Below, piece by piece: positions 1-35,400 of a DNA stretch of 64,000 nucleotides; the stretch's first letter is position 1; every line of letters begins with the position of its first letter. This DNA comes from Escallonia rubra (Eukaryota; Streptophyta; Magnoliopsida; Escalloniales; Escalloniaceae). The position numbers and the translations under genes were made by a program. The notes under the pieces are model-generated. The model saw only the letters and a program-made list of their open reading frames with translations, had not been told where the DNA came from and ran no database searches. The stretch lies in assembly GCA_033065855.1 (NCBI GenBank), contig JAVXUO010002773.1, positions 124,001-188,000 of the forward strand. Reading direction: 5' to 3'.

Positions 1-2243
1 GGAAGCCGTGACTGAAATCAAATTTCCTAATATACCGATATAATTCTAGTGACAACGGTATAAACAGAGCAACTAAACCCTTTAAAATAAAATATCTCCA
101 TAAAACAAAAATCTAATACAATCCATTCTCTGAATAATCCCATACAAAACCATCTACTAAACGCAGCGGCTAAACAAATTACAAAATCAATTATATCAAA
201 TTACCCACTTTCGGGTAAAGTTCTCAAAACAAACTGCAATCTAATTAACTAAAAAGGAATCTCAAAGCTCCAACGCCGTCACACGGATCCTTAGTCACTT
301 TCATGACCTGTGGCAAGGGGCAAGGTAGAGTGAAAGGGTGAGCTCAAATAGCTCAGTAAGGTACAAAAACGACATGATATCAAAGCAACAACTAACAGAG
401 TCAAACATCAATACTTGACAGAATGGGTAAACCAAATTCTTATATCAAATGCCGAAACAAACGTGATTAAGCATTAACCCTAAACATATATATAATATGC
501 CGGGAATGCTACACAACAAAAATATACGATGACTATGTTGGTCATAAGACCCAAACGTCGAACCAAACGTACAAACATCAAACGTGTGCTACCGGTAGCA
601 TGCTAAGCATCTATTAATCGCCAGCATATAATCAAACGTGTGTCCAAAAGGACCCTCTCAATTTGAGAGTTGTTCAAACATAGTCGATCAATTAGTCGTA
701 GATTGACGAGTACAAAAATACAAATTCAATGGAACTGAAACAACTCAACTCCGGGTTCCTTTGAGCTCAATATGACATGAAATCAAATAATTGATGGCAA
801 AATGATTAAACAAGGAAATAGGAACCAAATTCAAGCTTAAACTTAGAAAAAGAAAACAGCACAAGAACTGTTTATTTTTAATGATCAATGTCGCCCGTAA
901 CCCAGCAGATAAAGTACATTACATAGTCCGTTTTAGGGATTGGCGACTTACCCATTCAGTGACTTTGGCACTGGCCGTTCCCAAAATGGGTACTGTCGGG
1001 TCGGGTGAATTCAATAATAGACGCCTGTTGGCATTCCAGCCTTCCTTCGCCTTTCAGGGCCTATCCGAAAGAGAATCCAGTACTTCTTGGTCGTGAATAT
1101 GTAACGTGAACTTGGAAGTTTGTCCAATGATTTCAAAAGAATTCCCTAAGGTGACTTGAATTCAAGGCATATACATGCATTAGAAAACATGAAAGGAACT
1201 GTGATGTAATGTAATGTCTATGAATAAATTAAAGCCTGAAGAAGTGATTAAGGACAAAAGATGATGCCATCCATAAAGAAGAAAGGCATTGACCATGCCT
1301 TCTGCCAACCCAGCAATGAAAGAAAGAAATAATAAGACTAGGGCTTCTGTTGGTGATTAGCAAACGACAATGACATTTGGGATGCAACTGATTCATGCAA
1401 CTGCATGATGAATACTGTAACAATGATACTATAAACCTAACCAAACATAGAAGGCATTTCATAGGCTTCCAAATCACAAGCTGCCTAATGAAATTTGAGG
1501 TAAAATGGTAGCTAAATAAACAGTGGGTTTGCATTGGTTTAATGGGTATGGAAATTCCGCACGTGGCCCGTAAGGGAGTATCATATTTACCACACTTCAG
1601 CAGATTCAAACAGGAGAAACAAGAAGCAGACTATATCAATGATCGTGGAAACATGAATCTGACACAAGATGGATACCCTTTTCAAAGGCAATTAACGTAG
1701 GAATTTGAGCGATAGGAAATAATAGTGGAAACCCTCATCATCGGTGAAACTAGAAAACCCTTACAATAACAAAATCAGATTCCCTTACCATAGCAAAAAT
1801 AAAAGAAATCTCTTACACAACAAGCTTGATCGAGATCCAATAATTTTTCAGATTGAAAGAAGGAAACCCAAGCCACAGCAAAAAGCGTTAAAATCCCTTA
1901 CCTTAAACGCAAATCAGCGAAAGCTCAATCCTCCGGCTCTACGCCACTCAATTTACAACGAATTTCTCCAAAACGCAAGAAATTTAGGGCTGAAATGGAG
2001 GAGACAATGGAAGAGGCAGCGAACAGGGAAGAAAAGGGGAGGCTGGAAGAGAAAAAAGAACTATTTATATCAAAGCCCTAATTGGCAAATTACACAAAAC
2101 CCCTTTAAACTTTATCCACTTATTCAAAAGGCACCAAAACTTTCCTAATATTAGAAAAAGACCACAAATTTGTTTAATTAGTTATTTACTTATTTATTCA
2201 TTTTAAAGTGATAGAAAAAATTAAAAAAATATGGGGTATTACA
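1..2243 (-). mobile_element. Gypsy-type LTR, left part outside the window
   Basis: Read on the minus strand, the right end at 2243 starts TGTAATACCCC, the usual start of plant Ty3/gypsy LTRs, and it abuts terpene synthase coding sequence without spacer. No PBS of the tRNA-Met type is seen leftwards to position 1, so either the LTR is longer than 2.2 kb or it is a solo LTR. The stretch has no credible gene; a lysine/arginine-rich open frame at 1744-2148 (+) is read as chance. Assignment to gypsy rests on the terminal motif only. Confidence 0.6.
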
Positions 2244-5200
2244 CTCAGCATGGTAGATCATATTCAAAAACTAGGGTTGGCTGAACACTTCCATGAAGAC
2301 ATTGATGAAATTCTAGAACAGTTCTTCAGGTAACAAAGCACTGTTGCCCAAATTTAGGTTCTTGACAATAGCTCACTCAACCATCTTCGTTTCTGTAACT
2401 AGAACATATAGGAATCGCAAGAAACAACTAACGGAACCAAGGGGAACCAATGATGCATTGGCAAAGATATACAAGGACTCATTAGCATTTCGGCTACTGC
2501 GGATGCATGGATATAACATAACTCCATGTACAGCTTCAAAACCTACCCCCCCCCCCCCCCCCCCCTTCTCTCTCTCTCTCACACACACACAAGTTTTTCA
2601 AAGTCTTGTGGTAAATGACTTTTGCATTAACTGAAACTGATTTTGCATGTGCAGGGAGTTTTTGTTGGTTTCTAAATCACGAAGACATCCTAGATCATCT
2701 AGAACAAAACTGTGAACATTTCAGAAGCTTGATATATAATGTCTATAGAGCCACAGATGTTATATTTGCTGGAGAATACGAACTAGAGGAGGCAAGAATG
2801 TTTTCAAGAAAATTGCTCGAGAAAACTATGAAATCAAGAATGGCATGTGATAATTTTGTCACACTCCCAAGTTTCCGTGGAGTGGTAAGTCACGTTTATA
2901 CTCTTCACTCTATTCAACCGATGGGAAGTCGATGAGGAGAAATTAGCCACTGTAGTGGCTTTTCATAGTTAAATGATGCATTTGAATGTCTGGTTGCCAA
3001 CATAATCTCACTAAGTTTTTGGCTTCAAGGTGGCGGCCAAAATTAAATTTGGTAATACGTTGGCTCCTTTAAGTCCTGTGTGAAGCAAAGTTTCCTCCAA
3101 CCCCATGTTTGGAACAAAATTGTGGCTAGAGATCTTTTTGTGGCATTTTTGTATTACTCTACCAACAGTATTGTAACTTAGTATCAACAAACTGTAGGTT
3201 AAAGTGTTACAAGAAGTGTCACAAATGGGCTTTAGGGATGATGATTAGTTGAAGTGTCTGGGCGTTGGAGGGGAAATGGGCTCCCCCGTGAAGTCACCCT
3301 ACCAAACTCCAGATGGAAGTCAGCCGAGAGAGACAGAGAGAGAGAGATAGCAACAAAAGAAGACAATCCCAGTCTGATGAATTTGGATGCAATTCTTATG
3401 CCCAAAGATTATCACAAAAACATAAGAGAACTGGTTAAAAAAAACCATTTTTTTTTCTTTCTCGTTCCATTTTGTTCTCTCTACAATGTTGAAACTGTAT
3501 CGTGCATGTAAGTCATGCTAAGCAGAGACTGTTATGTTTCTAAAAGATTGAGCAAGAGCTGAGTCTTCCGTGGATTGCTAGACTGGATCATCTTGACCAT
3601 AGAATGTGGATTGAAGAAAATAGGGTCAGTCCTCTGTGGACTGGGAAGGCCTCCCTTTACAGGTAGAAGCTCCTATGAGTTGTATTGCACTTAAATTCCT
3701 ATTATGTTTACAGTTCTGCTTTATTCAATTTAAGCATGGTTGGAAGAATTTAACCAATCAAACATTTTCCTACTAGGTTAACATGTCTCCAGAATGAGAG
3801 TATCATGCAACTTGCCATGGAAAATTACAAGTTTCGTCAACTAATTTATAGGAACGAATTGGAGGAACTGAATAGGTACAAGATTTACTTCCACTAGAAT
3901 GTGTCCTCAAACACAACGAATTCGTCGAATAACTTTGTGAAAATTGATGAGTCATGGCGCGCCTTACGGATATGGCAGGTGGTCAAAGGACACTGGCCTT
4001 AGCGACATGGGATTTGGACGGGAAAAGACTACCTATTGCTACTTTGCTGTTGCCGCCAGCAGTTGTTTGGCTCATGATTCTCTTGTTCGGATGATAGTTG
4101 CCAAGAGCGCAATACTTATTACAGTCGCGGATGATTTTTTTGATATGAAAGGTGCTCTCGATGAATTGCAAGAATTGACTGAGGCAGTACAAAGGTAATT
4201 AAACTTCTTCTTTAGGTACATTATAATGGCAAAATTTTATCAGTTTGGCAAAAGGAGGCATCATGCCAAGCAAATTTATAGCTTTAGTAATACTCTCACA
4301 CCAACTGAGTGTTGTGATAAGTGTCCTTATAGGCTTTCAGCGATACATGGTGCAAAATGCCACTAAAAATCAACCCATAGTCTATGAAAATCAGGATAAG
4401 GAGTGTGCGGTTCAGTGTCTGAAGTACCAAAAGAACCAGACAGATTGCAGGGCTTCCTTTTCATCAATTTTTAGATTCCCTTTTGTTTTTCTATGCACAT
4501 TTGTTTTTTATCCTCATCTTGCCCCAAAATGTTACTTACTACTAATGTTTATGAATATGGTAGATGGGATGGTAAAGGTTTAAGGGGCCCTAGTAAGGTC
4601 ATCTTTGCTGCCCTTGTTGATTTTGTGACTGAAATTGCAACAGAGTTCCTCCATCAACAAGGAAGTGATATAACAAGATACATGCAAGATATAGTAAGTA
4701 TTGATGCATACTTGAGTGAGCAAATGCTGCATAATTGATCCATGTTATCGGTAAAAACTTAAGATTTATGTACTAAATGTGGTTCTTGTACAAAAGTGGC
4801 GCGAAACATTTTCCTCATGGCTGCTGGAAACTACTTGGAGCAATACTGGATACCTACCATCCGCAGATGAGTACCTTACGGTTGGCATGACGTCCATCGC
4901 AACACACACCATAGTTCTTCCATCTTCATGTTTCTTGAGCCCAAGGCTGCCAGATGACAAACTCAAAACCAATGTCTACGAAACTATCACAAAGTTGCTC
5001 ATGGCTACGGCTCGCTTGTTGAATGACATCCAAAGCTATCAGGTATGTTATCAGCCTTTTTCATAATGTCTCAGAAATTGAAATGCTCTAGAGTTAAAGG
5101 AACCAAGCGGTTAAGTTCTTTGCTGCTTCTAGGCCGTTGCCATGCGACTTCAAAAAACTTAACCGAACAAGTAAAAAAGCGTGACAAAATGAATCCCTTC

Positions 5201-6156
5201 ATCTTTGTAATTTACTACAAATTAACAAGCATGAGACCATCTGGCTATCTTGAAGAGTTTGAGTTTTGATGAAGGGCCCTCTTTTCCAATGGGATGAAAT
5301 TTGGTAGGACTCATCATGCTTTCATGCTTTTTTTATCGGTGTGGGTGAGGTTTTGAAATGTGCTCCATTTGTAAAGGACCAGGGAAATGCAAAGTTTCTG
5401 TATCCTGAGAAAATATTTTGCTACTGATGTAGGCATTTTATTTGTAACCACAACTAATGCCTATACTATCAAGTGTCTTTCAAGAAAATGTAGGTGCAAA
5501 TTTTAGAAAAAAAGTTGACACTGAAACTACTAGTAGAAGTATCGCTGCTCTAATAACGAAAAAGCCATTGAAAGGCGACGATGTCTCCTTTTCAGTCTCC
5601 GGGTAGCAGCAACATTTGCTCATTCTCTACCCTACTCTAAAACAATTATATGTTTCCTGTCGTGTACTCACAGAAGGAACAAGAGGAGGGGAAAATGAAC
5701 CTTGTGCTGCTCCACTTGAAAGAAAATCCAGACGGAGACATTGAAGATTCAATTGGTTATGTGAAGAACATATTAGATGAGAAGAGAAAAGAGTTACTCC
5801 AGCATGTTCTGATGGACGAGCTAAGTGATTTGCCGAAACCATGCAAGCATCTCCACCTATCATGTCTGAAAGTGTTTCAGATGTTCTTCGACTCCAGCAA
5901 CCGTTTTGACTCCAACACTGAACTACTTCAGGAAATAAAGAAGGCAATTTATGATCCTCCTGAATACCGGATCCTCAAGCCGATAACGCCTCAGCGTTGT
6001 TCTCGTGGAGTAACCACCCAAGAAAGTTCAACGGTGCATGCTCATTTCAATCGAACCTTCACAACTCGCGGCAGCAAAAGTCCCAAAATTTTTGCTACAA
6101 TAGATGACTGCAGGAAACCGCTTATTCCACCAAGGTTTAACTTCTGCTTCATTTGA
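2244..6156 (+). pseudogene. TPS-f terpene synthase, geranyllinalool/linalool-synthase-like, 5' truncated
   Basis: Class I terpene synthase of the TPS-e/f group, closest by eye to geranyllinalool synthases, which ionise geranylgeranyl diphosphate to an acyclic alcohol; linalool synthases of the same clade use geranyl diphosphate. Exons: 2244-2329, 2403-2527, 2655-2884, 3547-3662, 3777-3875, 3979-4194, 4564-4693, 4797-5042, 5674-6156. Counted from the ATG at 2250 they sum to 1725 nt with one open frame (574 residues and TGA). Key motifs are DDFFD at 4130-4144 (residues 268-272) and the second metal site NDIQSYQ-KE (residues 408-416). Family proteins have roughly 800-880 residues, so about 280 N-terminal residues are missing. 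Coding sequence (Leu-Ser before the Met) continues to 2244, where an LTR begins. The N-terminal exons may lie left of the window. No transit peptide or DXDD motif can be assessed. Substrate is not determinable. Confidence 0.88.
2546..2591. repeat. Compound microsatellite (C)20-(CT)n-(AC)n
   Basis: About 20 C residues followed by CT and AC dinucleotides inside the second retained intron of the terpene synthase. Probably variable in length between individuals and prone to sequencing error. Confidence 0.9.
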
Positions 6157-7441
6157 TTCGGCTTGTCAGCTACATCGCGTGTCTTAGCTTCCACAATAAA
6201 CAGATTTCTGTAATGCGAGTGTGTGTGAATAAGGCAATGTGCCTGATATCTGTGAAATTATGCTATCCCAATCAGGTGTGTGAGTTGAGCCTGTGAACTA
6301 AGATTGAAGCAAAGTTCTCTACTTGGTTAGATTAGTTCCGCTATCATTCCTGGTCAGGTGGTTGGATTTTTGTTTCTCTTTTGCTTTTTCTGATCAAAGT
6401 TGGATGGTACGTTGGCAGGAAAGCGTGTAGCCCTGATATTGTTCACCAGGTATCTTGATATTGACCGATCTTTTCCAGAAGGTACAGACAGCCCTAATCA
6501 AACTAGGACACAAACAACTTGGTTGTACCTCAAAACCAAAAAACATACAACAGTTGGAAGCAAAACTAATGAGTTCAGAAGAAAGTTCTTGAAACCATGT
6601 AATAAAACAGCCATAAAATCGCTATTGTTTCCAGAAATGGGACACTATTTGCACCTCAGAGGATATTTCCAAGTCTTAGGTCGTTTGAGAAAGAAGACAC
6701 TCTCGAAACCTCCAGAAAGTTTGCATCGAGAATTGTGTTTGAAGCTGGTTTAGCCAAAACACGTTCGCGCGACAACAACATTATACGGAGTAAAATACAG
6801 AAAAAAAACTGTCAGAGCGTTTTAACCATAAACAGACGCTAAAGTAGCCTAGGTGGAATTCTCCTCATGGCTTCAAAGTTATGGCCAGGCTAGCACTAAT
6901 TATTGGTCTTCCAGCAATACAACTGCTGCAAACTACGTACATTTATGATACTATGGTTTGTCTCAAGTTCAAACTGAAATAACATGTTAGTGTCAGGTCA
7001 CTATATGTGGCTAGATGCGCCAGACCTTGTTGTATTTGGTGCACAAACTTACAATTACATCAAAGTCAAAAATTGATTTCATCCTTGAATTTACTCTCAA
7101 ACTTGCTTGCTTGAACTTGTATAAGTTGTGCAAAACTCATATTTTCAGATTGGAGAGATTAGAAAAGTCACATGGGTTTATAAGTTGGTTGGCATGTTGG
7201 GCTTGGTAACAAGCTAGTAAAGGTGGACTGCCATGTGCAGGAGAGCTCAAAAATCCACCAGAAATCTATCCAGAACGATTGATTTGCACGCAGGTTTAAC
7301 TTTTGCTCCTTTCTTCACTATTGTCTCGTTTTACAAACTCACAGCTCCTTTCTTCACTATCTTCACCATCTAGAAGTTTCACTTTTTGGTGATAAAAACA
7401 AGCAAAAGACTATTTTGAGTGCTCCTTAGTGAAGAAGGGAC
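6157..7441. other. 3' flank of the terpene synthase; no gene recognised
   Basis: AT-rich. The 3' UTR of the terpene synthase must start here, but no clear polyadenylation signal was chosen. An open frame at 6400-6753 (117 codons) shows no family motif and is probably not coding. Confidence 0.5.
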
Positions 7442-8236
7442 TGTTGAATCCTGGAGGGTGCGAAACTACTCAAGAACAGTCAATCACCAGCCTCAACTTG
7501 CTCAATTTTCATTAAGTTAATACGCTAATTTTCATTTTGAGATAGTAGGTTTCCTATTATTTTAAAATAGACCCTTAACCTCACCCTACTCTTCAGAGGC
7601 CCACCCCCTCGTATTTTCTTTGAGCAGGGCCGAGAAAACTCTTTTTACTTCATTTCGTTCCCCAATTTGTTACATCAATTTATATGCTCTCCTCTTGGCG
7701 TTCTCTTGTCGTCCGAGTATGCTTATGGCGGGAGGGACTTCGTTCTACAACTAATTCGATGTTTATTGTTGGTGGTAATATGGTATGGCTTTGTGACTGA
7801 AAGAAGAATCGGTTTCGAGGCACGTTGTAAAACGCTTTCCTTAAGTTTATATTTGTCCCCACCAAAAACGATATGCAGCGGGTTGCAGGCAAATATCCTC
7901 CAAGATACAACGAAGCACTTTAGTGAATAGCGTTTGCACACACGATATTCACCCCACAAATATGTGTATGAAATTCTGGATAATGATTTTACAAGTAAGA
8001 AATTCTGCAAAAAAAATTTGTTGTAAAAGATCTGCAGAAAGAAAATAAATGAAGAGAGCAGAGGCTAATTACTAGGTCCGAATATCTGACCATTGTGCTC
8101 TATTTATAAAGCACTAGTGGTTGCTAATCAATGGTCACACCCTTTCATCATGCACCCAAGCAATCTGGATCGTTAGATCATAAACCATTAAGATTAATGG
8201 TCCAGATCTGGGCTGGTAACTAACCAGCTCCCAACA
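7442..8236 (-). mobile_element. Possible copia-type solo LTR
   Basis: On the minus strand the segment starts TGTTGGGAGC and ends GGATTCAACA, ends typical of plant Ty1/copia LTRs (TGTTG...CAACA), about 795 bp. A TATA-like TTTATAAATAGAGC lies at about 8098-8111 in minus orientation. No PBS, polypurine tract or matching 5-bp flanks (GGGAC against GTTAG) were found, so boundaries and identity are tentative. Confidence 0.35.
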
Positions 8237-9179
8237 GTTAGGTCTGCCCCGAACTGGAACCACCCAGCAGGTGCAACCGTTCGGGCATAACCCGAACCGG
8301 TGCAAGTGTAACCACCCACCTGCTAACGGTCGGATCCGACCCGATCCGTTGCACCGGCAGCCTAGTTTTAGTCACGAAAACTTAAAAGCGTCTAATCGCG
8401 TGCTAAGTACGCCATCAAAGCGCCACATTGTGCCTCACAGCCCACTGCCACGTGCGCGAGCGCGAACATTCTTCGTATGGTGCTTCGGTGCACATGCTTA
8501 CACCTTAGCATACCTCATAAGTATTAAAGTAAATGGAGTTCTTTATTATATACCCACTTACTTATTCAATTCCCTTCTACGTGGAATTCCTCCCTCTTTG
8601 CCTCTTCACATTCCTTTCATTATTTTGACAAAGAAAATGAACCAAACTTGACACTATATTTTGGAAAACACTAACATTTATTTGTAAATTATGTAACCTT
8701 CTCAGCTTGTTTACAAGCCAAACGCTATATACTTCTGAAAACTTTCTCTTTTCGTTTCTTGTTCAGGACAACAGAAATCAGTCAGAACTACCAAAACAAC
8801 CCCTAAAAGGAATCATGGTTAGGATGATCGAACTTTCTCTTGATCTGTGACGTTCTCTAGAGAAAATGTCTAAGTTGGAAGAGGTTTAGAGTAGAACATC
8901 CTGTGAGTAGCTGGTTAGGATTACCATGATTGATTAGACTCTTCTATCACTTTGAAGAGAAGTTGTTTCAAAATTGCAATTCCATGGGGAATGCTTTGAT
9001 TTTCATGTAAAGCCCTCCTCAACATAACTATAATGACAAAGATAAAGCTGTTACTCTCTATTTGAAAATGGTCTATTATGGAGGGGCATACCAAAAGGGA
9101 AAGGAGGTCTCTTGTGAACTGACAAGCAATTATATGATGACCATTTTTCTTGTGCATGTCACTAAAAGGTATGGGGCTT
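8237..9179. other. Intergenic; nothing recognised
   Basis: No gene-like frame. Short open frames on both strands (for example 8271-8651 and 8921-9157) lack family motifs. Confidence 0.5.
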
Positions 9180-9560
9180 CAAGAACCAAGAAATGCGATG
9201 CAGAGAAGTCAATTTTGTGGCAGCAAAGATATACAAGGTGCTAATTAATTTTGCAGCTGCTGCGGATACATGGATATGATGTAAAGCTATAGCATGGGGG
9301 CTTTTCTCAACAAGTTACTCTGGAATTGAGTATACTAACTTTCCATGTTTTTGCAATTGCAGGGTGTTTTTGTTGGATCTCAGATAATGTAAAAACTACG
9401 TTTACCAAGCTACATATCTTTCGTTTCAAAAGAACACGAACTAGAGGCAAGATTTTATCCATGAACATGCGTGATCTTAATTAGTATATTGTCTTGGAGA
9501 AAATATTCGATGACTATTCCACGTGAGTACAGTGACCCACACCATTTCATACACTCGTGT
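9180..9560 (+). pseudogene. Decayed fragment of a second TPS-f gene
   Basis: Collinear similarity to 2457-2900 of the terpene synthase. AGCAAAGATATACAAGG at about 9220 matches the exon at 2460. CTGCTGCGGATACATGGATATG at about 9257-9278 matches the region coding LLRMHGY. TTGCAGGGTGTTTTTGTTGG at about 9357 matches the acceptor and start of the next exon. GAACACGAACTAGAGG-CAAG near 9434 matches the region coding YELEEAR. Stops and indels break every frame, and the exon tail after the YKD codons is lost. It covers only two exons and the intron between them, so this is a genomic-DNA duplicate and not a processed copy. Nothing else of the gene was found nearby. Confidence 0.7.
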
Positions 9561-9946
9561 ATGTGAAGATAAATTTTATAACGATCCAACTCAAAAGTTA
9601 TACACCGGTTCATCAAGCTTAGTGCCACTGGATATCTACCCTACTTTTTTACCAGAACTGCACATTCTTTACTATGTTTTGCAATTCAAGTCAAGGCCTT
9701 AGTCACATACAATACAATGCTGCAACCAGAAAACCATGAACAGAGTCGATATTAGTTTTTAGTTAACTCCAATGGTGTCACTAGATGGTATCACATCCAA
9801 GCATTAATACTCCAAATAGTTGCATAACCAAATATTAGATTCCTAGATCTCGAAATATATGCGTTAATTATTCAGTACATCTTTCTCGCCTAAATTAATC
9901 TCACATCAATATATATGTTGATGCCAAGGAAAGTGGGTTCTTACTT

Positions 9947-10222
9947 ACGTGGAGGTGCCACAAAGGCTGCAGTCTATGTCAGCTGCCAAGTATGTAAAGT
10001 GAGAGACAGCAAGGACGGAGTAAGGGCTGAGAGCAAGGCTTCCCAGACGGGCCGTGAGGAATGGCAGTGCAGCGGAGGCAAAGTTACGTGGAGGTGCAAC
10101 AAAGGCTGCAGTCTGTGTCAGCTGCCAAGTATGTAAAGTGAGAGACAGCAAGGACGGAGTAAGGGCTGAGAGCAAGGCTTCCCAGACAGGCCGTGAGGAA
10201 TGGCAGTGCAGCGGAGGCAAAG
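9947..10222. repeat. Tandem repeat, 138 bp x 2
   Basis: Two almost identical 138-bp units, 9947-10084 and 10085-10222, each beginning ACGTGGAGGTGC. They differ at only a few positions, so the duplication is recent. Open frames across the units are a by-product of the repeat. Confidence 0.9.
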
Positions 10223-10839
10223 CCACGACGAACAGGGCCGGCAGTCGATAGTCCAAGTCAGGGTCCGATGTCACGATCTTAAGTTATGCCCAATTTTGTG
10301 TTTCTCTCTCTAGAATCCAAGAGCTCTCCAATTCTAGAGTGAGAAAGTGATTTTTGTGAGAATGAAGAAGAAGTCCCTTTTTGAGTTGTAAAGTTCACTA
10401 TTTATAGAAAACAATGTGCTTATGTCATAAAGTGCCACATGTCGTCCCCCGGGAGTGACACGTCACCAGGGGGTCCCAAAATACCGGTTCTCCGTTGGAC
10501 TGCCGGTTCCCAAATTCGCGTTGCCTGCCTCGCACAGCGTCGCTCTGCCTGTCTGAGAAGACTGACCATACCATGACGGCATGGTCAGAGTAAACCCGTT
10601 GCCCCAGCCACCAATCCAAGCCCTTACTGAATCCCATGAGGTGCGTCAAGAGACGCGCAGATAACCTGACAGTGGTGAGGGTTACCCCTGTAGCCAACTG
10701 CCAGGCGGACTAGGCGCGATGCCCTCCAAGGACCTGCTCCCGTCCCGGAGTGACCCGGGGGTCATTGCCCTGGTGGTGTCGAAGATCGATAGTAACATGA
10801 GCGGACATGGTCGCGGCTCAGTGCTCCGAGTCTTTGGCG

Positions 10840-11365
10840 AGGGGTCCTTGTGTCGGAGCCCCCTGTGACTGTGACGGCGATGGCCATGAGGTTGTGAGCC
10901 CATCCCGGTACGAGGGTCGAAGCCCCCTTGTGATTGAGACGGCGATGGCTATAAGGTTGTGAGCCCATCCCGGTACGAGGCCGAAGCCCCCTTGTGATTG
11001 AGACGGCGATGGCTATAAGGTTGTGAGCCCATCCCGGTACGAGGCCGAAGCCCCCCTTTTGATTGAGACGGCGATGGCTATAAGGTTGTGAGCCCATCCC
11101 GGTACGAGGCCGAAGCCCCTCTTTTGATTGAGACGGCGATGGCTATAAGGTTGTGAGCCCATCCCGGTACGAGGCCGAAGCCCCCATTTTGATTGAGATG
11201 GCGATGGCTATAAGGTTGTGAGCTCATCCCGATACGAGGCCGAAGCCCCCATTTTGATTGAGACGGCGATGGCTATAAGGTTGTGAGCCCATCCCGGTAC
11301 GAGGCCGAAGCCCCCATTTTGATTGAGATGGCGATGGCTATAAGGTTGTGAGCCCATCCCGGTAG
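10840..11365. repeat. 65-bp minisatellite, eight copies
   Basis: The marker GTTGTGAGC(C/T)CATCCC recurs at 10891, 10956, 11020, 11085, 11150, 11215, 11280 and 11345, a period of 64-65 bp. Units share the segment ending GATTGAGACGGCGATGGCTATAA. Divergence is low in the inner units and higher in the first. Confidence 0.95.
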
Positions 11366-11439
11366 TATGCAACATGATTGTGGCGCATGAGCGCGGTGCC
11401 TATAGCACGAGACAATACCCGATGCCTGGGGCACGTGTT

Positions 11440-11715
11440 GTGAAAGTGGTGCGGCGACGAACGTCGCGGAGCAATATTTGGTGCCGGGGCACGTATGATG
11501 AGATTGGCGCACGGGCGCGGCGACGAACGTCGCGGAGCAATACTTGGTGTCGGTGCATGTATCATGAGAATGCACGTAGGCGCGGCGATGATCGTCGCGG
11601 AGACAATACTTGGTGCGGTGGGCACGTATCATGACGATGGCGCAAGGGCGCGGCGACGAACGTCGCGGAGCAACAGTTGGTGCCGGGGGCACGTATCATG
11701 ACGATGGCGCTCGGG
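11440..11715. repeat. Second 65-68-bp tandem array, four copies
   Basis: Units marked by GCGGCGACGAACGTCGCGGA or close variants begin at 11451, 11517, 11582 and 11650. The core GCGACGAACGTCGC is itself partly palindromic. Sequence is unrelated to the adjacent 65-bp array. Confidence 0.9.
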
Positions 11716-11900
11716 CGCGCATCGGGTGTCCCAAAGACGAGATGTGAGCTAAGTGTGCCTGTCATAACAAGATAATGAATGCAACCTATAGTAATGACAA
11801 AGTTGGTAGTTATGGTATGCGGTCGTCGGCGACGGGTCATTCGGTGATAGTGCGCGACTTTGGGCGATGGGCATCGCGGGAGCGATGTGCGGTCATGAAC

Positions 11901-11975
11901 GACGGATGTCCCGAGGTTGATGCACGACGGACGTCATGAGGTTGATGCACGACGAACGTCGCGAGGTTGATGTAC
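11901..11975. repeat. 25-bp tandem repeat, three copies
   Basis: Units starting GACGGATGTC, GACGGACGTC and GACGAACGTC at 11901, 11926 and 11951, each followed by a GAGGTTGATG(C/T)AC tail. Confidence 0.85.
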
Positions 11976-12033
11976 GAACGTCCGTGAACATCGCGGAGGT
12001 GCAAAGACTCGAGAAAACAAGTATGTGGAAAAA

Positions 12034-12962
12034 GGGGTGAACCATCGGGGGAAAGTGGCCAAGGCCAAGCCCCCCAGGAGGCCGAGGCCGACCCCTATGG
12101 CCTGGGGAAGGCCGAGGCCGACCCCCTGGGGTTGGCCAAGGCCAAATGGCCAACTCTCCTGAAGGAGCCCAAGGCCACTCCCCTCTCTTGGTGAACTTCG
12201 GGCACGCCGACGGTAGGTGTTTTGATGGGCAAATACAAATCCGAAAGTTGCATCACGACGAGTGTGTCGACGCGAATCATACCTACATGAGGAACGAAAT
12301 GTCAAAGTCACGTGCAAAGCGTACAAAGCGAGAAAAGTGCGGAAAGAGGGGTTGCGCGGAGGGGTGAACCACCGGGGGAAAATGGCCGAGGCCAAGCCCT
12401 CCAGGAGGCCGAGGCCGACCCCCATGGCCTGGGGAAGGCCGAGGCCGACCCCCTGGGGTTGGCCAAGGTCATTTGGCCATCTTCCATTTTTTGGAGCCCG
12501 AGGCCACTTCTCCTTTTGCGAACTTCAGGTGCGCCGTCGGTAGGTGGTTTGATAAGCAATGACGAATCCGGAAGTTGCGTTACGACGAGCACGTTGCCAA
12601 GAATCATACCCACATAGCGATCAAGGTGTCAAGGTTACGTACAAAGCGTACGAGGGGAAAGAAGTACGAAAAAGGGGTATGCGGGAAAGGGGTGAACCAC
12701 CGGGGGAAAGTGGCCAAGGCCAAGCCCCCCAGGAGGCCGAGGCCGACCCCTATGGCCTGGGGAAGGCCGAGGCCGACCCCCTGGGGTTGGCCAAGGCCAT
12801 TTTCCCCCTTGACCCCGTTTCTCCAAATTCGCCGTCGGCCGATATTTTTGATGAAAAGGTGTTCAGATGGTCTCGGTGTGACGATCGCGCTAGCGTTAGT
12901 GACGTCGACGCGAAATAAAATGACTAAGTCACGCACGAAGCGCGCGGAACGAGAAAAACACG
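12034..12962. repeat. 328-bp GC-rich tandem repeat, about three copies
   Basis: Units begin GGGGTGAACCA(C/T)CGGGGG at 12034, 12361 and 12689, periods 327 and 328; the third unit is diverged in its second half. Each unit has a very GC-rich first half with GGCCGAGGCCGACCCC repeated inside it and a less biased second half. Many overlapping open frames on both strands result from the base composition and are not called as genes. Confidence 0.95.
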
Positions 12963-13099
12963 TGTCTTGGGCGCGCGGGCGCTGACAGGTTTGATGCGTT
13001 GGAAAATTGACCGTTGACAATGTCGACGTGTTCGCGTGAAATGGGACCCCTATTGGGCCCTTGGGTACGACCAGAATAGGTTGGGAACATATGTATATC

Positions 13100-13304
13100 T
13101 TTTTTTTTTTTGGTTAGACCACCCGGTTTCCGGACACCACATTGAGAGCCGACTAATCCGGGTTCGAGCCGTGCAGGACCACATGGGCGGAAAAGCTCTC
13201 CCTACCAAGTTTTAACGCAGCTGCATTCCCAGGGCTCGAACACGAGACCTCTAGTTAAGTTAGGACAACCCCTTACCAGCTGACCTACGCGCTTGGTGGT
13301 ATAT
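13100..13304 (-). mobile_element. tRNA-derived SINE with target-site duplication
   Basis: On the minus strand the element starts near 13304 with a tRNA-like head: GCGTAGGTCAGCTGGTAAG resembles an A box and GTGTTCGAGCCC a B box. The body ends in a run of 12 A (T run at 13100-13111 on plus). An 11-bp direct repeat ATATGTATATC flanks it at 13089-13099 and 13305-13315, as expected for target-primed insertion. It lies between the repeat block and the end of the carboxypeptidase gene. The SINE family was not assigned. Confidence 0.88.
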
Positions 13305-13605
13305 ATATGTATATCACTCTCACTGTGAAACTGCAACAAATTCAAACTAGCCATGTTTTTCTATCTTTAGTGATAAGCCATACATTTCTTTGATACAGTT
13401 TGCATACCTGTTAACAATGGGAACATCAAACATGAACTATCTGGTATAAAAGATTCCATTTATTCTCTTTCCACATTTGGTACATGCCCCAAAGGGCGAA
13501 GACCACGGGTAAGGTTGTTTTATGCTACATGTATGAAACTACATAGTAGATTTAGGTGCGTACGTATGTATGCGAGCAAAGTACAAAGACAACCTGCCAT
13601 CAGGG

Positions 13606-17653
<4,048 letters not shown>

Positions 17654-22300: not shown

Positions 22301-25013
22301 AAACAATGGGTTCTTACAGTCGGCTTTCATGCGATACAGGGTTGCCGCCCTACTTTCCACTTTGGAATGCTAAATTCTCGTTCCGGACTTTACTCGCCAC
22401 CTTATTATGAAATGACACCTAACAATTCCTTTGACATGTTCATGATAAGGCAGCACCAGCTGAAATATAATCCCATGCCAAGTACATATTCAATATTGTT
22501 CACTCAAAGGTCTAGCCGAGAAAGATGAAACATTTCTTGGATTGCTACAAGGAAATTAAGGAAAAACCAATTTGCACTCCCTTTTTTGCTAATGGCATTA
22601 ACATATATTACATTATTTAAGCACAAGATGCAAATTATCATGGCTGTACATTATGCAACAATACGAGAGTGCCATCAGCAAGTAAGGGAGTGCCAATAGG
22701 GCCATCCGAAAGATAAGTGCTTATATAGTGCTTCCTTTACCGAGCATTATGGTTCCTTATCTCCCAAAATTTACCAAACAGTTGCAAAAAAGAAGTCTTT
22801 GATATGCTATTGCAAGAGGTGAATCTACAAGAAGTGCTCTTAAAATAAAATATACAGAACAATAGTAAATGCCCAGGTCAATCATCTTATCCTATTCAAT
22901 CTTTCACGTGTTACGTGCCTAAATTTGATTTATTACACCAGAGTAGTCGCGTGATAATTCTGAAGCTTGAGATTAACTTTTAGATACATTAATTAAGAAG
23001 CACATGCTTTACGAATTCCACTTCTTTCTTGGAAGGTCGGGCATTATGATGGATTAGGTTCAACTGTTTCCCTTGTTTTCTATTCGTAAATTGGATCATG
23101 CTCAACAATAAAGTCATCTAGTTCATGATGACAAGCAGAAGGGCTGTTTTCAGTATGGAATTTGGGCGTTTCATGGCTATCTGAATGTGGTTGGCACAAG
23201 TTGATATCATAAGTTTAGCAACACATAAGTTTCCATCTGTTTATGGAGATTTTCCTTGGTGCAAAGAAAGCCATTATCGGTTTGTTAAGGCAAATATTGT
23301 TCTGCCAAGAGTCACTAACCAAGGTCAACTAAAGTTCATTACATGATTTTGTGCTTCCAGTGGAATGAAGCATATCTGCAAAACAAATACAGTAAAGCTA
23401 TTCTCTGATGGGCCACCTTTTGTAAAGCAGTATGGTGATACTTTATTAGTGCCACCATTGGTTCCATCTTGCAGGCAACCTTCCTTGACCGTCTATGTAG
23501 GCAAAATCTATCAAATACCGCGAAGAAGATAAGCATCATGCCAACCAAAAGTGCTATCTGTCCCTAGTTCTCCCCCACTACCGCCAAGAAAAATAGAATT
23601 GCACAACATTGGTCATTTTGCATTAATTTTATCTGTCCAACATAATTTCTCCTAGGGTATAGATCCAACAACCCATACACATGCTGACTAGCGAGAATGA
23701 TAATAAGACTCGCACAACAATATTGAAGCATCATTGAACTTCCTCCAATTGGCCTTATTGGTAGAGTCACTAGTGGGAAGGTATTCTTGTCGTACTTTTC
23801 AGGTACATGCTCTCTCTTTCTTGACCAACTTTATCTGCTTCATTTAGGTAAGTAATTTTATCCTTTAGTTACATTGTCATTTATATTTTCCAGTTCTGAC
23901 TCCCATATACCGACCAACATTCCTCTATTTGATGTTAATTCCTTCTACAAGGCTTTCTTCACCTTATTCATTTTCTTGTATAGAGAATGCATCTAATTCT
24001 ACTGAGCTTGAAGGTAAAGGATGAACATTGCTAAATGGTCCCAATTTTGATGACAGTCATGAGACGGTACGAATCAATCGAGTATCAAATGTTTCACATC
24101 ATCACCGTATATAAAGATATAAAATCAGAAGATAATCCACGTAGGTTCCTTTTACCGTTCATTGTATGTACTATTATACTAGCAAATGATAAGAAGGGCT
24201 ACTTCTATTAACAAATTATCAAGTTATTTGGGAGTTGTTGTTCATCGTATCGTTATATTGATTTCCTGCTTCAATCTTCTCATAGATGAGAACATCATAA
24301 AAAAGGAAGCACTAGAAACAATCCAAATAAAAACATTGTATCCCCCACTGCGAGTTGTTTTTCGGTGTCACTAGGAACTATGATCACGAATGCTTTTTCA
24401 AATGCTCAAGTTCCCAATGGAGGAGGTAGAAAATTTACCAGCCCCCTTTGTTTGTCACTCTTAGAGTGGTGTGAGAAAAGAGAAAAAAAAAGGTAAGAAA
24501 AAGCAAAGAACACTTATGCAGATCTACATATGGTGTCGTGGGGTAGTACACTGCTGGTGATAACCCAATGACGAATCACTGTACCAAAAATTGGCCTTCA
24601 CTAAGAGAAAAGGGATTCGAAGCATTTTATCAAGTCTTCCTACACGTTTGTTCACAATCTTCACATCCCAAACTCGGATTGATGCTCACAAAAGTGACAC
24701 AATAGTGAAGGAATCAACTTCTTAACAAGGAAATTAAAAATTACCTCAAGAAAGTATCAAACTTGTTAATCCGGTGGTCTTAGCAAGCAGCTGTAGGCAA
24801 AGGTTGCTGATCTTCAGTTCCACTAGGATTGCAGAAGGTCAAAATCCCTTCATCTACCCACCGAGTCACTTAACCCAGCCCCGAGCCCAAGTTCACTCAA
24901 ACACAAGAGTCCAAAACCCAAGCTGGAAACCAAAGGCGAACAAACCACCCCACTCCCCGTCTTCCCCCACATTTACCCAAAACCAAAGACATTCTGAAAT
25001 TCTCTTCCAAAAA
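19340..25013. other. 5.7-kb intergenic stretch; no gene recognised
   Basis: AT-rich, with only short open frames (longest 113 codons, 21586-21927) lacking recognisable motifs on either strand. A GA run lies at 22030-22044. The last part holds the promoter and leader of the hydrolase gene at 25014. Diverged transposon remains are likely, but none could be assigned. Confidence 0.5.
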
Positions 25014-25976
25014 ATGGGGGAAGAACAGAAGCAAGACCCCCAAAACCGCCTCCATTACTGGGGAAACACCACAGAAGAGGACTATTACAAAACCCAAAAC
25101 ATCAGATCCACAAAGTCCTTCTACACCTCACCCAGAGGCCTATCACTCTTCACAAGGTCATGGCTACCCCTACCCACCACCATCCCTCCACGTGGCCTGA
25201 TCTGCATGGTCCACGGCTACGGGAATGACATCAGCTGGACATTCCAGGCCACCCCGATCTTCCTAGCCCAACATGGGTTCGCCTGCTTTGCTCTTGACCT
25301 CCAAGGCCATGGCCAATCCCAAGGCCTCAAAGCCTATGTCCCAAATGTCAACGACGTTATATCGGACATCGTGTCTTTCTTCAATTCCATCCTCACTCAA
25401 AACCCTGATTACCAAAACCTACCCAAATTCCTGTTTGGCGAGTCAATGGGTGGTGCCATTTGCCTTCTGATCCATTTCCAAAACCCGAGATTGTTCAGTG
25501 GAGCAATTTTGATTGCACCCATGTGTAAAATCTCAGATAAAGTAAAACCCAGATGGCCAATTCCTGAGATTTTAACGTTTGTGTCAAGATTTGCGCCCAC
25601 TTTGCCTATTGTTCCTACGGCAGATTTGGTGGACAAGTCTGTTAAGGTTCATCAAAAGAAACTTATTGCTGGGATGAACCCGATGAGATATAGGGGGAAA
25701 CCACGATTGGGTACTGTTGTAGAATTATTACGGGTTACTGATTATGTTAGCAACCGATTGTGCGAAGTCAGTTTGCCGTTCATTGTGTTACATGGGAGCG
25801 CTGATGTTGTTACTGATCCGGATGTCAGTAGGGAATTGTTTGAAAAGGCGAAGAGCGATGATAAGAGTATCAAGATTTACGATGGGATGATGCATTCTTT
25901 GCTGTTTGGGGAGACTGATGAGAATGTTGAGATTGTTCGCGGTGATATACTGGCTTGGTTGAATGATCATTGCTGA
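25014..25976 (+). CDS. Monoacylglycerol-lipase-type alpha/beta hydrolase, intronless
   Basis: Serine hydrolase of the plant MAGL / caffeoylshikimate-esterase group (Hydrolase_4). Members release fatty acid and glycerol from monoacylglycerol, or hydrolyse lysophospholipid or caffeoyl shikimate. The protein has 320 residues, the usual family length. VHGYG (66-70) forms the oxyanion region; the catalytic triad is Ser144 in GESMG, Asp264 in HGSADVVTDP and His294 in GMMHSL. The N-terminal HYWGNTTEEDYY (residues 14-25) is a plant family hallmark. The open frame extends 80 codons upstream to 24774, but the ATG at 25014 (context AAAAATGGGG) starts at the conserved region and the upstream part is low-complexity and Ser/Pro/Gln-rich, so it is taken as leader. 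No signal peptide; probably cytosolic or membrane-associated. Substrate is unproven. Confidence 0.93.
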   Translation: MGEEQKQDPQNRLHYWGNTTEEDYYKTQNIRSTKSFYTSPRGLSLFTRSWLPLPTTIPPRGLICMVHGYGNDISWTFQATPIFLAQHGFACFALDLQGHGQSQGLKAYVPNVNDVISDIVSFFNSILTQNPDYQNLPKFLFGESMGGAICLLIHFQNPRLFSGAILIAPMCKISDKVKPRWPIPEILTFVSRFAPTLPIVPTADLVDKSVKVHQKKLIAGMNPMRYRGKPRLGTVVELLRVTDYVSNRLCEVSLPFIVLHGSADVVTDPDVSRELFEKAKSDDKSIKIYDGMMHSLLFGETDENVEIVRGDILAWLNDHC

Positions 25977-29431: not shown

Positions 29432-32400
29432 TCACTCGTTAAAGCTGAATAGATAGTTCAAGTCCTCTACTGTAAGGCTAGTTTGACCGCTACCAGTCTC
29501 ATCCTCTCCAAAGGCAGATGATACCATTTCTCTCTTCTTTTGCTGCAGAGCACAAGCATTTAATGAGTACAACTCTTGTGAACCCAATATCATAAACTCA
29601 AGAATAACGGAGACCAACAGTAGCGGATCTTTAATACAATGCCAGTGAAGTAGAAATATTAGAAAGAAAGTGGCAAATCTTAACTTTGCACAGTATTTAG
29701 GTTCGTACTTTTTTGTTGCTACCAAACTGGTCAATGAAGTGGACTTCCAGCGAAAAAAAAATTTGGCTGCCGGAGCTCAATATCTAGAGGGCCCTGATCG
29801 TTCTATCCTAAGAATGTGGAAAATAAAAACCAACAGTAAAATGGATGTCGAATAGAAAGGGTCTTCTTGTATTCGAGATCAGATCTTCCAAACTTGTAGA
29901 TTGAACCTGGATCCATGTTAATACTTGCACTTTGGGGGCATTGCAGCACTCTATACTGATGGTTGTAATAACAATATTTTGCCCTAATCTAATCAGGTAA
30001 AAGTTCAACACAGTGATGAGTCAAAACCCAATTCCCATGCTTGATTCCAGCAGTTAAAAAATTGAAACCAACTGCGGTAAAGTTCAAGGTCCATTCTACA
30101 ACTAGCCCAAGCAACAAAATACAAATGAAGTACCTGAAGAGCTAAAATACGATCTTCAACTGTATCTTTCACTGTCAATCGTAAAACTTTAACCGGACGA
30201 GTCTGCCCAATCCGATGCGCTCTGTCAATTGCCTGATCTTCGGTTGTGGGATTCCACCACAGGTCCAGGAGGAGGACATGACAAGCTGCAACCATGTTCA
30301 ATCCCAAACTTGCAGCTTTCAAAGACATTATCATAACAGACACCTACAAGAGAAGTAGAATGTATCATGTTAATAAGAAGAAAAGAACTATACCAAGAAG
30401 ACTATAGCAAGATTCCCACAAACCTCTGGAAGATTGTTGAAATCCTTCACGGCTTTGTCTCGAGCCGCAACAGACATTGTTCCATCAAGTCTTCTGTAAT
30501 TGATGGCAGAAATTTTAAGACCGTTCTCAAGCAAATCCAACATCCTAGTCCACTGGGAAAAGACTATCGCTTTCTCTCCCACTACTGAAACCACATCATT
30601 CGAACCTCGATCCAAATCCATTTTTTTGTTAGCAATCTGCGGATCAGAGGACTTTTTAGGACAACTGGAACTCTCATCAACTGAAATTAAGGAACTACTG
30701 GATAAGACAATTGCTTTCTCTCCCACCACCGAAACCAGATCATTTGAACCTCGACAGGAATCCATTTTTTGGTTAGAAGTCGTATCCTCATATAACTTCC
30801 CTGGAAGAGGATCAGAAGCCACTCTACGACAACTGGAACTCTCCTCCAAAGATATCAACGAACTACTACTTGACGTAACTTTGCACGGTTTAGACAGAGA
30901 TTGCAAGAACTCAAGGGCAGCCTTGATTTTGGAGGAATCAAATGAGCCAACTGATGAAATAGTCCCGGAAGACCCAGATTCAGCACCAGAACATTCAGTG
31001 TTACTTTCCTGACCAGTATGGTCTAGAGTGCTTTTCAGAGTTGCTCTAGAAAATACGGAAGATACACAAAGGCGAGCTTTGCAATCTGCAGTTGGGCACT
31101 GTTTTTCATCACCTGTTAAATGTTCACAGATGCACTGATTGCAAAAAACATGCCCACAGGTTGTAACAGCAGCATCTTCAGGTGGGTCCTATAATATTGT
31201 CAGCAAGGATACGTCAATAAACAAGAAGCTTCATTTAACTCAAAGGCAAAACATGAGATCATGCTCTTAACAGATAAGAGCATATATCACCTTAAGAGAA
31301 TTCATCTTTACTAGTAGAAGATAGAATTAGGACCACAAGCATCACAATCACATGATCTCTCTTGTACAAAACTAGTATACACTCTTACACCGTGATAATA
31401 TGGCCAATTATTAGACAGCTTACCAACCAAGAAAAAGAGATGATGCAAAATTATAGCATCCAGACATGAAGTATTTGATGTGGCAGTATCTGAACGTGTA
31501 CCATATCATCACGAGGATACTTCAACGTATTATAAAAACTCAAGATCCTAGTAAAAATCAGCATTCAATCAGGGGTTCCTAGATATCATCGTTTTCTCCA
31601 CATCCTTTCAACTTTGACTTCTTCCCTTGAATTTGGTGTTAACCATGTCTTAAAAGGCACTCATGCCCTCTAGATCCTTTTCCCTACAGGCTTTGTTTCG
31701 AAATCTTCATTTTTAACTTCTTCCCTTGTATTTGGCGTTAACCACGTCTTATGAGACCTTGATACCCCTCCCCTCGATCTCCCTGTTCTCCATTGTTCTC
31801 AAGTAAGACATGCAGCCGCCTGGTTGGAGCAAGACATCATGCTTCTAATATCGATAGGTGGCAGCGGTAAATGGGGCTAAGGATTAGAATTGGCAGCTGA
31901 CAAACCACTAACTTCTCCTAGGATTTTAATTAATTATCTCGTAATCAACCGAACAAAAAGAGATCTGTAATATAGAGAATATAATAATATAGAAAGGCTA
32001 TTTCAACCCCACAAGTATGTTAACAATTATAAAAAAAAATGCATCTTTAGTGACAAAAAGGGGGTGAAAAAGCATATGATAAAACGGAAATCCCTAATAC
32101 TACATCCAACTATGTGAAAAATAGAAAGTTCAATCAAATTGCTGTAACGACCCAAATGCTTCAAAAGTTTCCCACCAAAAAGACGTGCATAATTCAAAGA
32201 TATATAAATCAAGGGCTTAAGAACACAGCAGAGTATGCATGTACATGTAAAAGTTCTGCATGTGGATTTAGGTAAAGCTAAAAAATCACACATAAAAAAC
32301 AATCCTTCACTACAACATTAACCCAACTCAAAGAAGAAAGCAGCGACAATTAGCAACCATAACAATATTGACAGGTAACAACAATAACTACAAAAAGTAA

Positions 32401-35400
32401 AACAAAAAACTGAACTTCCAGAGTTCCCAGTAAAAAAATCATACGTTACAGATGCCACAGATTGCTAATGAAGCTTCCAGACAATGCAGAAGATGAACTT
32501 GTTTCTCCCTAGGAAGTTTCTTAGCTGTCTCAGCAGAGGTCCTCCACACTGAATTGGAACCACATCCCCCAACAAGAAGAGGATGATCACAAGCTTGTCG
32601 GAGGCGCAGGAGCAACAACAAAATGTTAACATAATTTTGCTTGACGGTTCCAGCAGCTGCATATTCCTGACACAACATACCAATCTTAGTAAGATACCAG
32701 GAGAAGAAAAAAAGAAAAAAAAAACACTTAAAAAATGATTTAACAAGTGTAAACCTGGCACAAATGCCAAATCCGGGAGTTACAAGCAGTGGTGTGAAAA
32801 TGAAATAAAGATTATTTAGCAACCCAAACAATAGTAATACATACAGCTGGCCAGGTGGAAACTTAAAAAACCAACAAACACTCCAAATTACACGAAAAAG
32901 TAAAACATACTGCAAACTGAGCACGTGAATCAGCCTCTAATCTGCAGTAGAAATCCCGTTCCTCAACTGTAAAATCCACTTTCTTCAACTCTATGGTTTT
33001 AGGTGGTAGGCAAATGATTGGTTCTCCATCAAGAAGTGTGCCTACAACAAACATTAATCACCAAAAATCATTAGTCAATTAGTAGTCGTAACTTTAATAA
33101 TCTATAGATGATGCAATAGCAAATCAAAACGGCACAGGTCAATTACTAACTGTACGTAAAGACACAAGCAAACACTAGCACACCAAAATTTCATAAAAAC
33201 AACTCATTGATGAAAGTTTTAAGGGAATTAAAAAGGCTAACAATAGATTTCAAGTAGTCCAGAACACTTGAGCCAACAACAATAAGCTCAACGTATACGT
33301 CTCATAAAAAACTTGAAGGGGTCAGATCTTAGAAGCAGGAAGCTCCTCATATGGTGTCGCTTCTCTCTCAGAAACTCGCTTTTGTGATCCCAAGTCAGGA
33401 CCTCGATGGATCCCGTCCCAAGCTAACATGGGAACTAGGTCCCATCAGCTGGACAGAGATACATGGAACAAGTTTTAGAGTACCTGAAAATCAAGTCCTT
33501 TTCAACTCAATTCCCTTTCCCCTCTTCCTTTAAGTCCTTAAAGCCTCCTTGCATGTTGCTGAATACCCCCGTCGAGAGAATAGAGCTTGTCAATCAGCGC
33601 GCTCTCTCTCTTCAATTTTTTGGCCCCATGTCTAATTGCTTGTCCGATGAGAGATGTGCCACTAGAAACGTCTCGAGAAGTGAACAGCAGCAGCGAACTA
33701 CTTTTACCTTAATTATTTTCAAAGGCAAGTTGTAGGCAACCACTAGATGTGACGAGTACAAAGTAACAATTCATTGTCGCTTATGATATTTTCAAGGAAA
33801 AAAGTGTGTACAAAATAATCAAGTATAAGGTATATTAAACAAATGATACTACTCTTTACACGTTTATTTTTCAAGTTGCTCCCAACCTTAGATTCTTCAA
33901 GGTGCTTACCCGCCCCCGCTCCGTGCAACTAAGGGCCTATTATAACAGTCCCATTCATTCATATAAAACTCTTGATAAATTGGCTTCTTAAACTAAAAAG
34001 CGAGCAACCATATTAAAAACCCTCACAAACAACTGTCTTTCAAATGAATTCACTACACTGAGTCATAAGAAACGCACAGATAAAGGAAGTAGTGAGAACA
34101 AAAGAGAAACCATTATATTGAGCTATTCGCCTATTCCATTAAATTTAGATGATTAAGAAAAAGCATATCGCTTTTTTCTATCGCCTCACCTTTGGTACGG
34201 CGCAACATAAATGTCTTCAAGACAGCTTGTAGCTTTCTGTATCCCTTTGTTGGGCTCTTCTGAATTGGAGCCTTAATTGTAGAGCAGAATGATTTATATG
34301 CGGCATAAGGTTCATATTTGAGAAATCTGAAGTAGCTATAAAGATCATCAATGGAATTCTGAACAGGGGTCCCTGATAAGCACCACCTACGTTTAGCACG
34401 GAGACCCCAACAAGCCCTAGCTGTTTGAGTTCTGTGATTTTTAATGCTCTGGGCCTCATCCAGTACAACTCTGAACCATTCAACTTTAGCAAGAGGACGA
34501 GCAACAGCTTCAAACAATTCACTGTCCATTCCTTTCTTACCCTTATATGATCTGCTAGTAGAGCTTGGAGGATACTTCCTCTTCTTACTGGAAGAGAGTC
34601 CCATAGACAGACCATGATTTTGTTTTTCCGTCTCATTATTAATTTCATCTGCAAGAGGTTGCTTTGGGACCTCCATGCTTACAATTGCATATGTGGTAAG
34701 GACAACATCAAACTTTGCCAGCTCAACAGGATCCTTAGTTCTGTTGCTTCCGTGGTATATTAAGATGGAGAGATTAGCTTTGCTGGTTACCTTATTATGC
34801 AACTCCTCTGACCATTGGCGAAGAACACTCGTAGGACATACCACAAGGGTTCCAGCAGCCGGCCTACCTTTTGTCTTCACGGAAGGGTTTCTCATATTAG
34901 TTGAACTTCTACTTGTATTAACTTGGCAAGATTCAACATTATGAGTTGATCCATCAAGCTGAAGCTCGCCCTCCTCGTCATCTTCCAGATTCAATGTCTC
35001 CGTCTCTCTTTTTTGGTTGTTCATTGTACACAATACAGAAGATGGAGATCTTTCCGTAAGTAAAAGTGCAATGGTTGATATAGTTTTGCCCAGCCCCTGC
35101 CAGAGTTATTATATAGAATCATGAAGAGATTAAAGAGCAGTTCCTTGCACAGTACTATCAACTAAGTCTAGTATTGGCGGGGGGTCCAAAATGTAACCTG
35201 ATCATCTGCAAGAATTCCTCCACGGCAGTTCAGGCTGGCTATCTCCTTTTGAATCATCCATGCTAAAGCAATTCTCTGTCCAGAACTTCAAGCAATGTCA
35301 GTTTGCCCGTCATCAAAAGACTTCCTTAATGAGTAGAAGAATAAATAATATATGTAAGAAGGGTATCCCTATTCGCAAACCCTAAACGGCTATTGGCACT

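Follow-up and report, generated by a model that had tools for sequence, protein, structure and literature searches.

Class I terpene synthase genes are described as having 12-14 introns and as encoding the SAYDTAW signature (PMC5573811). In maize, 9 of 30 terpene synthase genes are contained wholly or in part in an LTR element (PMC6681836), and the terpene synthase cluster of grape contains 25 pseudogenes and vestiges of Copia elements (PMC3017849). The locus from Escallonia rubra analyzed here (a stretch of 64,000 nucleotides, C3178:124001-188000, called the window in what follows) shares with those of maize and grape a tandem cluster of terpene synthase genes with pseudogenes and LTR elements, whereas the solo LTR in a coding exon that is present here is not described in the cited parts of the maize and grape accounts. 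In its single LTR, its TG..CA ends, and its 5-bp duplication the insert resembles solo LTRs of plant Ty3/gypsy elements, and duplications of 5 bp were found for 93.4% of 13,566 surveyed elements (PMC6317226).

At 2231-2262 an LTR terminus abuts terpene synthase coding sequence, as the preliminary description had claimed and as the letters confirm. The exons to the right of the LTR (Table 1) add up to 86+116+230+116+99+216+130+246+483 = 1722 nt, that is 573 codons and a stop codon, with GT-AG borders at all eight introns. It had been reported earlier that nine downstream exons are open in one frame, which holds, but the nine include the broken exon itself and their length, stop codon included, is 1722 nt and not 1725 nt. 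In the translation of this right part, DDFFD is located at residue 267 and NDIQSYQKE at residue 407, and the Pfam families PF03936 (E 7.4e-58) and PF01397 (E 3.8e-29) were detected, with the PF01397 match beginning at position 52 of the 188 in the profile. The N-terminal exons are present in order to the left of the LTR, the first of them encoding SAYDTAW. With N- and C-terminal domains, a DDxxD motif (DDFFD), an NSE-type motif (NDIQSYQKE), and SAYDTAW all found, the gene is predicted to encode a class I terpene synthase, putatively of the TPS-e/f subfamily; a pure TPS-c type is presumably ruled out by the DDxxD motif.

Table 1. Coordinates of the broken terpene synthase copy, its insert, and other genes. 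Plain numbers are window positions; L024 is C3178:117001-127000, and window base p is L024 base 7000+p.
Feature	Position	Strand	Remark
Exon 1	L024 5294-5612		313/322 aligned positions matching P1
Exon 2	L024 5955-6146		188/193 matching P1
Exon 3	L024 6236-6456		205/221 matching P1
Exon 4, left 38 nt	L024 6941-6978		36/38 matching P1
CTCAG, left half of duplication	C3178:123979-123983 (L024 6979-6983)		17-21 bases left of window
Solo LTR, 2260 nt	1..2243, starting 16 bases left of window (C3178:123984-126243; L024 6984-9243)	-	homology limits and CTCAG on both sides
TATA-box-like ATATAAATAG of LTR	2061..2070	-	TATAAAT at LTR position 175; motif only
CTCAG, right half of 5-bp target site duplication	2244..2248	.	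single CTCAG here in uninterrupted L020 and L021
Exon 4, right part (exon A)	2244..2329	+	
Exon 5 (B)	2412..2527	+	
Exon 6 (C)	2655..2884	+	
Exon 7 (D)	3547..3662	+	
Exon 8 (E)	3777..3875	+	
Exon 9 (F)	3979..4194	+	carries DDFFD
Exon 10 (G)	4564..4693	+	
Exon 11 (H)	4797..5042	+	carries most of NDIQSYQKE
Exon 12 (I)	5674..6156	+	through stop codon
Serine carboxypeptidase	15443-16000	-	PF00450
Hydrolase	24738-25973		PF12146 family
SNF2/RING helicase pieces	30391-31188 and 34134-35105	-	
Kelch protein	53685-55043		

Two whole copies of the gene are located on the same contig. P1, with exon 1 from about C3178:85684, has a coding sequence of 2496 nt (831 codons in 12 exons) and P2, with exon 1 from about C3178:105809, one of 2493 nt (830 codons); in both, the sole stop codon is terminal and SAYDTAW is present. 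P1 is like class I terpene synthase genes in its 12 exons, SAYDTAW, DDFFD, NSE-type motif, and 831 residues, and its 11 introns are one under the 12-14 printed for class I and far over the 6 of class III; class I of the citrus paper, in the part cited, includes a gene of 12 exons. In contrast, the window copy differs from class I genes by being split in exon 4 and by carrying two more lesions. When the assembly (566 Mb in 3222 contigs) was searched, C3178:86881 matched the gene side of the junction at 97%, beginning exactly at 2244. At this site P1 and P2 both read ATCAAG-CTCAG-CATGG in an uninterrupted exon, whereas the broken copy reads ATCAAG-CTCAG-LTR-CTCAG-CATGG. Because the whole copies run uninterrupted through the site with one CTCAG, the target lies inside coding exon 4, 38 nt past its start, a distance that is the same in all three copies. 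The comparison with relatives lacking the insertion, proposed in the preliminary description, thereby agrees with its central claim that the LTR was inserted inside a terpene synthase coding exon.

CTCAG followed by C resembles a YAG splice acceptor, and the target might have been the last bases of an intron, with CTCAG as the native acceptor. However, P1, P2, and the broken copy all have the start of the exon 38 nt further to the left, where TAG or CAG precedes it, and in the whole copies this 38-nt stretch is coding sequence (P S M Y P M D G G L I K), so that this explanation, refuted by the uninterrupted copies unless these have been misread, can be regarded as practically impossible. For the question of the exon the whole copies supersede alignments with solved structures, in which the 46 best stretches start at query residue 1 in 15 cases, at residues 2-4 in 18, and at residues 180-181 in 13; at the junction residues taxadiene synthase has LS, and LN is found in the five such alignments shown. 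Searching the literature for the word LSMVD gave unrelated matches only.

Some further differences were observed within the cluster. P2 is without the intron between exons 4 and 5 (L021 2910-3146; C3178:106910-107146), a deletion having removed it together with 3 coding bases without closing the frame, while P1 and the window copy have kept it. P1 contains about 2.6 kb of extra sequence in its intron between exons 7 and 8 (L020 6177-8815; C3178:88177-90815). Downstream of the broken copy, a decayed remnant of exons 5 and 6 is present at 9180-9410 (75/110 and 42/63 aligned sites identical), and the tandem array therefore once had a further copy. The exon B portion of it (9180-9290) scored 223 when 6157-14000 was scanned, where the highest score among 20 shuffles was 108; of the other 17 exon-and-strand tests in that region, 14 did not exceed the shuffle maximum and three were barely above it (C+ 187/185, H+ 142/137, H- 148/145). 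A sequence at 7284-7312 resembles the end of terpene synthase coding sequence (79% of 29 nt), perhaps by chance. GC-rich tandem arrays occupy 10793-12810, with units of about 65 nt at 10793-11429 and a spacing of 327-328 nt at 12033-12810, and a long repeat of CCACCA type with open frames on both strands extends from 18321 to at least 18904.

On the minus strand TGTAATACCCC terminates at 2243 and is followed directly by CTCAGCATGGTAGAT; to the right of the LTR the terpene synthase exon resumes immediately at 2244, with no element interior between. Homology to all five fetched 10-kb relatives starts at L024 6984 and stops at 9243-9246, and the termini are TG..CA (from TGTAATACCCC to GTGACA on the minus strand), as in one complete LTR. 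The order at the junctions in L024 is GGACTCATCAAG-CTCAG (6979-6983), the LTR (6984-9243), and CTCAG-CATGGTAGAT. What had been expected from a leftward extension, namely the other LTR end, a second CTCAG, and the missing N-terminal exons, is found just left of the window, and the CTCAG at 2244-2248 is one half of the target duplication as supposed, its mate standing exactly at the other LTR end. Inside the window CTCAG occurs 33 times on the plus strand and is alone uninformative; the occurrence at 352-356 was considered as the mate and rejected, its next bases being TAAGG. An assembly artefact at the junction is extremely improbable, as the insert stops on each side exactly at an LTR terminus, the two halves of the 5-bp duplication match, and the exon is continuous on either side, which a misjoin would not yield.

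Leftward of the insert, no match to a second LTR was detected at E up to 1e-6 across C3178:94001-124000 or 117001-127000, and the exact primer binding site (PBS) word is absent from the same two stretches. Because neither was found in 30 kb leftwards, the insert is identified as a solo LTR and not a full element. The word TGTAAYACCC occurs three times in the 64 kb, both strands counted, compared with 0.14 expected from 100 shuffles: once at the insert end at 2243 and once at the start of each LTR of a small complete element at 40136-42677. The LTRs of this other element measure about 1.19 kb (1017/1171 aligned sites identical, 86.8%) and enclose an interior of about 158 nt; it has a PBS at 41332, a purine run, and TCGAG on both sides, and is non-autonomous and TRIM-like but with long LTRs.

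The end of the inserted LTR (about window 2100-2243) was matched by 38 of the 40 places scored among 261 candidates in the assembly, a count that is a lower bound, and the LTR family is therefore abundant. Copies of the family have LTRs of about 2.0-2.2 kb and the PBS TGGTATCAGAGC, and paired LTRs, with the PBS word following at a distance of a few bases, were found in four of the five fetched 10-kb relatives (L025-L028). In the one relative tested, L028, a reverse transcriptase was detected (PF00078, E 8.3e-39) along with a chromodomain match (PF00385) of 24.8 bits, just below the cut-off of 25.1, which together point to a predicted Ty3/gypsy chromovirus. From the long LTR and its start word we presume that the family is probably of the Tekay (Del) type. 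It resembles the Tekay elements of beet, whose LTRs measure 2561-2743 nt in copies without insertion or deletion (PMC3605345, section 5), in its long LTRs. The PBS word was absent from all 11 IMG/VR contigs found by pattern search, and a search of a plasmid collection gave nothing useful for this element.

In two copies of the family, the LTR pairs are about 99% identical (99.6% over 1426 nt in L028 1670-10000 of C2282 and 98.9% over 1970 nt in L027 2977-8274 of C673), and the family has therefore moved recently. Among 11 loci sampled (L014-L019 and L025-L029) from the 38 or more other LTR places, the copy nearest to the inserted LTR is L019, from which it differs at 21 of 1637 compared sites (K2P 0.0129). 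The insertion is no older than the split from L019 and hence at most about 0.5 My at 1.3e-8 or 0.9 My at 7e-9 substitutions per site per year; these clock rates are assumed, and gene conversion would upset the dating. A neutral clock applied to the intact 1722 nt alone allows up to about 0.8-2.8 My (5% level, assumed rates) and is superseded by, and consistent with, the LTR divergence. The earlier suggestion of a recent break is thereby supported: the insertion is recent, under about 0.5-0.9 million years, within these assumptions.

Upstream of the insertion, exon 2 of the broken copy has lost 1 nt and exon 4 has TAA in place of TAT; both changes are absent from P1 and P2. Exon 1 carries in addition an in-frame 3-nt deletion. 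The copy might thus already have been dead through the frameshift or the stop when the element inserted, in which case the LTR would not be the cause of the loss. Against this, the 1722 nt to the right of the LTR are free of lesions, as would be expected if constraint had been lifted only a short time ago, and the lesions are spread unevenly, though not strongly so, with two in the roughly 770 nt upstream and none in the 1722 nt downstream; we regard an earlier death as possible, if somewhat doubtful. Compared with P1, the right part gives dS 0.070, dN 0.025, and a ratio of 0.36 over 574 codons and the left part dS 0.083, dN 0.021, and a ratio of 0.25 over 255 codons, and P1 versus P2 gives dS 0.022, dN 0.011, and a ratio of 0.50. 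From these values the divergence of the copies long predates the break and took place mostly under constraint, and the left and right parts show no difference of a kind indicating that selection acted on the right one once the break had occurred.

The account that we hold to be very nearly certain, with the assembly taken as given, is that of an LTR insertion into exon 4, reduced to a solo LTR and leaving most likely a young pseudogene. A Ty3/gypsy-type retrotransposon would have been integrated by its integrase, in minus orientation, into one of at least three tandem class I terpene synthase copies, duplicating CTCAG. The insert itself is without a PBS or coding part, and a full-length stage would have been ended by recombination between the two LTRs, removing the interior and one LTR. 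With the exon split and the TATA-like box of the LTR directed away from exons 4-12, expression of the copy has probably been lost, and the frameshift in exon 2 and the stop in exon 4 likewise speak against an in-frame product read across the LTR. A rightward transcript starting in or near the LTR might nevertheless use the right part, in which an in-frame ATG at 2250, six bases past the junction, would open a predicted 571-residue enzyme without the gamma domain. According to a review, truncation studies of diterpene synthases gave, in the part cited, no independently working domain pieces (PMC10813164), and we consider such use highly unlikely; if true, it would be a domain loss made by a transposon and caught in the act beside whole parent copies.

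Insertion with pseudogene formation is an ordinary, textbook kind of gene damage, and the case is new only as an instance, unusually well documented with its flank, that leaves the understanding of such events unchanged. Its documentation is complete in that the two ends of the LTR, the duplicated target, and sister copies with an uninterrupted exon are all present on one contig. It corrects the annotation, the window copy not being a gene, provides in the presence or absence of the insertion a usable marker, and illustrates turnover within a tandem array of terpene synthase genes.
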